From Synergistaceae bacterium (GTDB taxonomy: Bacteria > Synergistota > Synergistia > Synergistales > Aminobacteriaceae): 37,935 bases of DNA. The position numbers were made by a program, and so were the translations under genes. Positions within the stretch are counted from its first letter, which is position 1; every line of letters starts with the position of its first letter. Positions 9,111-36,807 of this stretch are shown one piece after another. A model generated the notes under the pieces. It was not told the origin of the DNA. It saw nothing but the letters and a program-made list of their open reading frames with translations, and did no database searches. The stretch lies in assembly GCA_017449415.1 (NCBI GenBank), contig JAFSJO010000052.1, positions 1 to 37,935 on the forward strand, read 5' to 3'.

Positions 9111-9196
9111 GGATTAGGGATTAGGGATTGAAAAACGTTTCATTGAGTGCTTTGAGCTTTTCACAATCCCTAATTCCTCATTCCTCATTCCTAATT
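9106..9196. repeat. Heptanucleotide repeat, inverted arms between convergent genes
   Basis: The left arm has three ATTAGGG units plus ATTG (9106-9130). The right arm (9164-9196) begins CAATCCC and continues as 7-base units with CCTCATT. The arms pair almost throughout a stem of about 25 bp (11 perfect pairs, then pairs with G·U and T·C) around a 33-base loop. The left arm supplies the regulator's stop codon and the right arm encodes the last residues and stop of queH. It may act as a two-way terminator, though it has no clean T-tract. Confidence 0.75.
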
Positions 9197-11668: not shown

Positions 11669-11750
11669 CATGGCGGCCAACCTCGAAAGTCGTCGAACTA
11701 ATTTTGGAAATTTCCTCGCGAGGGTTGATGAGTGGGGAAAGACTTGGGGA

Positions 11751-11822
11751 TTTTTGTAGTTGCAAATGTAGTTGAAAAAACAGCTCCGCGGGATCTCCTC
11801 GGAACTGTTCGCGAACATTATA
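11751..11822 (-). ncRNA. Promoter-hairpin-U6 unit with conserved tail, copy 1
   Basis: On the minus strand an extended -10 (TG-A-TATAAT, TATAAT at 11822-11817) is followed after 7 bases by a 10-bp hairpin. Its arms are AACAGTTCCG (11809-11800) and CGGAGCTGTT (11788-11779), then a run of T, then a tail CAACTACA-TTTG-CAACTACAAAAA. The 30 bases at 11751-11780 are identical to 36726-36755. The stem has a U·G pair only when read as minus-strand RNA, which supports that strand. The predicted transcript would start at the foot of the hairpin. No gene lies upstream to be terminated by it. A frame open through it (from 11818) does not look coding. Confidence 0.5.
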
Positions 11823-11847
11823 TCACACTTCGATTAGCGTGAGGCCG

Positions 11848-11877
11848 CCCCTCACTCCTCACCCCTCACTCCTCACC
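11848..11877. repeat. Heptanucleotide repeat, single arm
   Basis: Four 7-base units alternating CCCCTCA and CTCCTCA, between the promoter-hairpin unit and the rpsF promoter. It is the same family as the repeats at 9106, 30029 and 34619. The preceding GTGAGG (11839-11844) can pair with its first CCTCAC. Confidence 0.8.
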
Positions 11878-29884: not shown

Positions 29885-30657
29885 ATTCACATTGCCATAT
29901 AAATTCCGAGGAGCTTCGGGCGGACTCGGAGGCCATCATCAGACGCGCTGGCGAGGTCGGGATCGGAAAGATGCTCATCGTGGGCTGCGACCTCGAGGAC
30001 AGTATCGAAGCCGTCGAGATAGCTCACACCCCTCACTCCTCACCCCTAACTCCTCCCTGTTACGCTTCGATCGGCGTTCACCCTCACGAGGCCAAGCGTT
30101 ACGCTGATGTTCCCGAAAAATTTTTTGATTTAGTGAATGATGACAAGGTTGTCGCGGTCGGCGAGATCGGACTCGACTATCATTATGACCTTTCGCCGCG
30201 TGATGTTCAGGCTGATATGTTCGAGCGTCAGTTGGACTTCGCGAAAGCTCACGACATGCCCGTAATCTTGCACATACGCGAGGCCATGAGCGACGCTATG
30301 AAAATTTTGCATCGTCATGAGGGCTTGAAGCTCTTGTTTCATTGCTACGCAGGCGGGCTTGAATATCTCGATGAGGTTTTGGAGCTTGGAGGGCTGTGCG
30401 CGTTCGGCGGTGCCTTGACGTGGAAAGGCAAAGCGTCCGAGGAGCTTCGCGAGGTCTTCAGGAGGATCCCGGCCGAGAGAATTTTGCTCGAAACTGACTG
30501 CCCGTACATGACCCCCGCGCCATTTCGAGGCAAGCTCAATGAGCCGTCGTACATCAAGCTCGTCTATGAACGTGCCGCGGCCGAGAGAGATCTCAGCGTC
30601 GAGGAGCTAGCTGACATAATCGAACGCAACGCCGAAAAATTTTTTAACTGGAGATAG
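29875..30657 (+). CDS. tatD: TatD-family metal-dependent DNase
   Basis: A 260-residue TIM-barrel hydrolase. Metal ligands are seen in LIDSHCHI (HxH), VGEIGLDYHYD, ILHIREA, LFHCYAGG and LETDCPYMTP. Between the first helix (IEAVEIA) and the strand YASIGVHPHEAKRY the chain holds a proline/serine-rich stretch, HTPHSSPLTPPC. It is encoded by four heptamer repeat units at 30029-30056, and most relatives have a shorter, ordinary loop there. The repeat keeps the frame open, so the enzyme may still be active. Relatives are 3'-5' exonucleases used in DNA repair or quality control. The tgt start follows three bases after the stop. Confidence 0.93.
   Translation: MLIDSHCHINSEELRADSEAIIRRAGEVGIGKMLIVGCDLEDSIEAVEIAHTPHSSPLTPPCYASIGVHPHEAKRYADVPEKFFDLVNDDKVVAVGEIGLDYHYDLSPRDVQADMFERQLDFAKAHDMPVILHIREAMSDAMKILHRHEGLKLLFHCYAGGLEYLDEVLELGGLCAFGGALTWKGKASEELREVFRRIPAERILLETDCPYMTPAPFRGKLNEPSYIKLVYERAAAERDLSVEELADIIERNAEKFFNWR
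30029..30056. repeat. Heptanucleotide repeat inside tatD
   Basis: Four units of seven: CCCCTCA, CTCCTCA, CCCCTAA, CTCCTCC. Same family and phase as 11848-11877. It is translated as part of TatD and marks either an insertion or an in-frame expansion in a surface loop. Confidence 0.8.
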
Positions 30658-34618: not shown

Positions 34619-34699
34619 GTTAGGGGTTAGGGGTTAGGAGTTAGGAGTTGGCTGTCATGCTTTTCACTCCTCACTCCTACCTCCTCGCTCCTCATTCTC
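34619..34699. repeat. Heptanucleotide repeat, inverted arms between convergent genes
   Basis: The left arm has GTTAGGG, GTTAGGG, GTTAGGA, GTTAGGA (34619-34646); the right arm (34665-34699) has CACTCCT, CACTCCT, ACCTCCT, CGCTCCT, CATTCTC. The arms can pair imperfectly around a short loop. It sits just after the stop of the SH3 membrane protein and at the end of the RpiR gene, as at 9106-9196. Confidence 0.8.
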
Positions 34700-36628: not shown

Positions 36629-36665
36629 AGAGCGGTTTCTCTTTCACGAGAGCCGCTCTTTTTTT
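36629..36665 (+). terminator. Intrinsic terminator of the HU gene
   Basis: AGAGCGG (36629-36635) pairs with CCGCTCT (36653-36659). Inner TCTC/GAGA pairs lengthen the stem, and seven T follow. Confidence 0.9.
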
Positions 36666-36725
36666 CGTTTTTTTAGTTTTGAAATTTTCTTTGCGAAGTC
36701 TTGCGATCACCGCAATAAATCGAAG

Positions 36726-36801
36726 TTTTTGTAGTTGCAAATGTAGTTGAAAAAAGGCAATTCCCCCACGCAAGGAGAACTACCTTTAACGTTGTATTAT
36801 A
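36726..36801 (-). ncRNA. Promoter-hairpin-U6 unit with conserved tail, copy 2
   Basis: On the minus strand an extended -10 (TG-T-TATAAT, TATAAT at 36801-36796) is followed after 8 bases by a 14-bp stem (36787-36774 with 36766-36753). This stem needs U·G pairs that exist only in minus-strand RNA. A T-run and the same tail as at 11751-11780 follow (36726-36755, 30 of 30 bases identical). The stem sequence is unrelated to copy 1, but the layout is the same. It may also simply terminate the peptidase gene, whose stop is 20 bases upstream of the stem. Confidence 0.5.
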
Positions 36802-36807
36802 ACACGT

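Follow-up and report, generated by a model that had tools for sequence, protein, structure and literature searches.

Dispersed intergenic elements combining a promoter, a variable hairpin and tandem direct repeats in a genus of gut Synergistaceae

Two copies in the window and the family they belong to

The stretch of DNA analysed here (the window) comprises 37,935 nucleotides from an uncultured gut bacterium of the Synergistaceae, probably of the rumen type, as its named relatives are Synergistaceae MAGs from the rumen. It contains two minus-strand units, at 11751-11822 and 36726-36801, which the first-pass annotation had described as an extended -10 promoter placed just ahead of an RNA hairpin and followed by a U-run and an invariant tail, and both are present as described (Table 1). 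The first sits between the divergent genes for ribosomal protein S6 and transketolase, and the second between the 3' ends of two convergent genes, one unnamed and one HU-like, with its -10 starting 3 bp past the stop codon of the neighbouring gene. Tail and U-run agree at 30 of 30 bases (11751-11780 = 36726-36755), the stems of the two units differ in sequence, and the wobble pairs they contain are valid as G.U solely in RNA read from the minus strand, all of which had been recognised at the outset. The close spacing between -10 and stem also stands, with a recount giving 6 and 8 bases in place of 7-8, and the 8-base direct repeat noted in the tail is present as part of a larger tandem 12-bp unit, the first of which, in copy 1, begins inside the T-run. 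The predicted folding energy of each hairpin is about -19 to -20 kcal/mol (z of about -5.4; 0 of 200 shuffles equally stable), and the 20-nt tail matches twice in the window, against 0 matches in 100 dinucleotide shuffles.

Table 1. Parts of the two element copies in the window.
Feature	Coordinates	Strand	Basis
Copy 1, extended -10 promoter, TGATATAAT	11817..11825 (11825-11817)	-	Sequence and family statistics
Copy 1, RNA hairpin (11-bp perfect stem, 11-nt loop), part of predicted intrinsic terminator	11778..11810	-	Fold z -5.4
Copy 1, U-run closing the predicted terminator	11775..11780	-	Sequence
Copy 1, block 1 (tail), CAACTACATTTGCAACTACA, two tandem 12-bp direct repeats	11755..11774	-	61 genomic copies; sister-species divergence 1.0%
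Copy 1, block 2, AAAATTAGTTCGACGACTTTCGA, at fixed spacing from block 1	11683..11705	-	Ungapped alignment A1; ~1% sister-species divergence
Copy 2, extended -10 promoter, TGTTATAAT	36796..36804 (36804-36796)	-	Sequence and family statistics
Copy 2, RNA hairpin (15-bp stem, 5-nt loop), part of predicted intrinsic terminator	36753..36787	-	Fold z -5.4
Copy 2, U-run closing the predicted terminator	36750..36755	-	Sequence
Copy 2, block 1, CAACTACATTTGCAACTACA	36730..36749	-	Genomic copies; window shuffle test
Copy 2, block 2, AAAACTAAAAAAACGAAAAAAAG	36658..36680	-	Alignment A1; models R1 and R2 match over block

A whole-genome search for the tail, which the first-pass annotation had proposed together with the idea of a new dispersed element, bears that idea out: the genome of the window (G000, ~1.9 Mb in 155 contigs) holds 61 tail copies at <=3 mismatches, where the reversed control finds 1, and the family is restricted to the genus. 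The element is intergenic, ~150-180 bp long, and laid out as an extended -10, ~40 bp of variable DNA, block 1 (two tandem 12-bp units of the form TTTN-CAACTACA) and an AT-rich block 2. Between -41 and -62, TGNTAHAAT is present in 45/61 copies of G000 and 36/40 of G019, against 0.3-0.5% in background windows; its distance from the tail is variable (41 to 62 bp, mostly -48/-49), and no conserved -35 was seen upstream of the elements. Block 2 starts exactly 69 bp from the start of the tail and spans 69-92, and the 58 copies of alignment A1, when aligned on the tail, match without gaps over ~100 bases, with no indel between blocks 1 and 2. In one G000 subfamily (L012, L014, L016, L020, L030, L031, L032 and L034) the similarity extends ~90 bases beyond block 2, reaching ~+180 in some members and including a weak bidirectional A/T hairpin.

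The spelling of the repeat varies by species and subtype (CAACTACA, CCACTACA, CAGCTACA, TTGGTCACTACA, GGACTACA and CCACAACA), and several types can coexist within one genome; G007 has a second type, GGACTACA x2. Both units are often spelt alike (CCACTACA, CAGCTACA, TTGGTCACTACA or CCACAACA, each twice), as would suit tandem sites that a single protein recognises. The halves co-vary strictly in several dialects, not in all: in G019 they are unequal (CAACTACA..CACCTACA), so any dimer symmetry may not be strict. In G064 (L351, G064:C85), two near-identical elements lie in tandem 266 bp apart, with a dialect that differs at both units at once.

Constraint between sister species and the hairpin-bearing subset

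Constraint was assessed in one species pair, G019 and G007 (94% identity, ~5-6% apart), at 25 orthologous loci. Changes affect 5/500 positions of block 1 (1.0%; p=4e-5) and 6/575 of block 2 (~1%; p=1e-5), against 55/1122 between the blocks. At the fixed -10 positions 0/154 are changed, compared with 77/784 for the spacer (p=1e-6). The surroundings of these constrained parts are 5-10% changed, with ~9% just upstream of the tail. As judged from this sequence comparison, the promoter and both blocks are held by purifying selection at individual loci, and the loci themselves are shared by the two species in 29/30 testable cases in one direction and 28/29 in the other. Because their key parts are preserved by selection, these dispersed elements probably do a real job.

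Among 246 copies drawn from many species, 92 carry a stem of >=8 bp with >=3 G-C pairs, whereas shuffled sequences give 2-3 and flanking control regions 6; read antisense, the same copies give only 26, and G.U accounts for 17% of the sense-strand pairs. This excess over controls, the antisense deficit and the share of G.U pairs argue that the hairpin, in sequence terms, is a genuine feature of the sense-strand RNA in some of the copies. Between the sister species, stems changed at 8/249 sites (3.2%) and loops at 9/102 (8.8%), with pairing kept in 5/6 single-sided stem changes, and stems across species share the pattern CAGYYYYC/GRRRRCTG. The early suggestion of selection on structure thus fits the hairpin-bearing copies, but the hairpin is not universal: together with the U-run it closes the variable part in 36/61 copies of G000, 13/20 of G036 and 14/40 of G019, and it occurs in 0/35 sampled copies of G009, G026 and G033 combined (16, 11 and 8, respectively). 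The element's own promoter, present in ~3/4 of the G000 copies, is likewise confined to a subset, and tail copies with neither hairpin nor -10, which the first-pass annotation had named as evidence against its own proposal, are a minority.

These results bear directly on the proposal that the elements encode very short (~35-40 nt) hairpin RNAs, transcribed from dispersed promoters and acting in trans, with the tail as an appendage or a second RNA motif. The strong selection on the -10, the RNA-level behaviour of hairpin and U-run (the G.U share and the slower change of stems than loops) and the stem pattern shared across species all speak for it, but 25/61 copies in the present genome (~40%) and every sampled copy in the three species above are without a hairpin, the best-conserved parts lie beyond the terminator, and the DNA downstream of the tail has no conserved RNA structure. 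Comparison of 14 element loci with Rfam gave no match near the gathering score and none to the element, which also rejects a known structured RNA, and we consider the short-RNA proposal, though it has partial support, unlikely. The strongest conservation, that of the tail and block 2, falls beyond the end of the hairpin-terminated RNA and therefore points to a site at the DNA level, while the rigid spacing of the blocks, together with the lack of a conserved downstream RNA fold, points to a DNA-protein complex. A coding sequence was rejected as well, since no reading frame stays open through the copies of G000 and G019 alike.

Distribution, insertion and neighbouring genes

With a sequence-only model, 25/43 genomes of the genus are positive, fifteen of them with 15 to at least 92 copies (at least 92 in G019, which is 100% complete); a broader model detects the element in 27/43, with one marginal single match among 140 other genomes of the order. 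Virus, phage and plasmid records gave no match to the element. In a tree of rpsF (99/99), the element-rich genomes group together in a single clade, separate from G021, and this clade holds one element-free member.

Most element positions differ between distant species. At one clean presence/absence site (L253 in G019 versus L304 in G007), an insert of ~176 bp has its ends immediately ahead of TTTTTTGTGnTATAAT and immediately past block 2, with a possible 4-bp TAAA target-site duplication at this single site. The empty allele keeps 12 bases, TACATTTACACA, which match the tail core at 11/12 positions, a remnant that may be an excision footprint or may be due to chance (a few percent on a rough estimate). 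In G020 the module lies inside a ~450-bp MITE-like element with long inverted repeats (L068, L079, L119, L386, L388, L394 and L396), the outer of which begins CAGGGCAACAGCATTTACC; this long-TIR element may account for the spread of the module in G020 only.

The differing positions, the presence/absence site and the copies inside a TIR element in G020 would suit a selfish, non-autonomous mobile family of the MITE or REPIN kind that is merely tolerated, as would the sequence common to copies even in their unconstrained middle, the subfamilies with extended identity and the near-identical tandem pair of G064. In G000, however, neither the two window copies nor L003, L009 and L030 have terminal inverted repeats, which speaks against a MITE; the Y1 (PF01797) transposase of REPIN/RAYT systems has 0 matches in G000, G016, G007 and the complete G019; no transposase recurs among the neighbours, which also rejects an autonomous copy; and the elements are under purifying selection in situ, at loci that the sister species share. 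A REPIN/RAYT identity further fails for want of a conserved palindromic stem, the stems differing between copies and being missing from ~40% of them here. Mere tolerance is accordingly improbable in our judgement. As copies are retained and selected, the family appears domesticated and not freely jumping; the moderate similarity of the unconstrained middle among copies shows that they did spread, and a selfish component remains.

Copies occur in all four neighbour orientations, with the direction of the element independent of the genes, and no family is enriched among the neighbours (at most 3/109 flanking proteins), which have unrelated housekeeping functions; a regulon of functionally related genes was therefore rejected. 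Gene ends are reused between distant species in 15/34 cases, against 14% of gaps >=60 bp (p=1e-4), with equal orientation at 11/15 loci counted over two analyses (p=0.06), but the excess disappears when only gaps >=150 bp are counted, and since it depends on which gaps count as eligible, we have softened the claim of conserved position. A role in cis, as leader or operator of the genes next to it (in a one-factor regulon or as an attenuator), would fit the promoter, the terminator, the operator-like repeats and the reuse of gene ends at the lower gap threshold, but is very improbable given that 13/60 copies, including copy 2, lie between convergent genes and given the fate of that excess, the independent direction and the unrelated neighbours.

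Related elements and a proposed role

No description of an element of this sort came up in literature searches; among known systems, REPINs, promoter-bearing MITEs and dispersed nucleoid sites come closest. REPIN/REP sequences are short intergenic repeats that reach tens of copies and persist for long within a lineage (PMC3116915, PMC8049555). The present elements resemble them in all these respects, and the complement of the tail contains GTAG; REPs, in contrast, conserve the palindrome itself, whereas here the stems vary between copies, a promoter and a tandem direct repeat take the place of inverted pairs, and the most element-rich genomes have no Y1 transposase. Correia elements are promoter-bearing MITEs of ~150 bp, intergenic and non-autonomous (reviewed in PMC10969869). 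The likeness extends to size, intergenic position, lack of autonomy and the capacity to carry a promoter, but the elements described here are without TIRs, only the G020 copies lying inside a TIR element, and selection acts on their internal blocks.

The binding sites of Noc or SlmA are dispersed nucleoid sites, short palindromes without promoter or terminator. Like them, our elements are DNA sites found in tens of intergenic positions over the chromosome with no theme of gene function; unlike them, they carry a promoter and terminator, and their protein partner is putative. Group IIC introns insert behind terminators, which recalls the unchanging sequence that comes straight after variable hairpins in the present elements, but here the -10 is part of the unit, many copies are without a hairpin, and there are no intron domains and no Rfam match. 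A tyrosine-recombinase att or integron-like site was rejected because PF00589 has 0 matches in G019, the control genomes being positive in 14/14. Several genomes of the genus that are close to complete (G019, G010, G035, G011, G024 and others) likewise gave no match to this domain, and the usual Xer dimer-resolution system may be missing.

The reading we favour, tentatively, is that the elements are an old, selected DNA site, dispersed and lineage-specific, for a putative protein, fronted by a self-terminating promoter, and that they act as chromosomal sites. The proposal can be set out in four steps:

(i) Blocks 1 and 2 together would form a rigid DNA binding site for a putative lineage-specific protein, or possibly for several paralogous binding proteins, as the coexisting repeat dialects suggest.

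(ii) The promoter would give rise to a transcript of ~40 nt that ends at the margin of the site, halted by the hairpin or, perhaps, by the putative protein, which when bound would act as a roadblock.

(iii) The element would serve as a genome-wide chromosomal site, with a role in local control, insulation or nucleoid organisation, and would not be the leader of a particular gene.

(iv) New copies would have arisen by copying of the whole segment.

A more doubtful, though possible, extension is that these are chromosomal elements of a new type: at 60-90 places per genome, a housekeeping promoter would make a ~40-nt self-terminating RNA at the edge of a tandem-repeat protein site, and the repeat dialects would co-evolve in each species with putative DNA-binding proteins, in a clade-specific genome-organising or immunity-related system. 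A non-coding unit that is dispersed, present in tens of copies and also under selection is rare in bacterial genomes, and the family could bring to light a chromosome-site system beyond the small number already known. With ~20 species, hundreds of copies and several dialects, it should be possible to find the protein partner by co-variation.

The window also holds a second dispersed repeat, consisting of arrays of 7-base units such as TTAGGAG or TGAGGAG, at 9167-9193, 11848-11874, 30029-30055 and 34667-34693. In G019, ~175 clusters of such arrays were counted over 1.18 Mb, and the length of one array is not the same in G007 as in G019.
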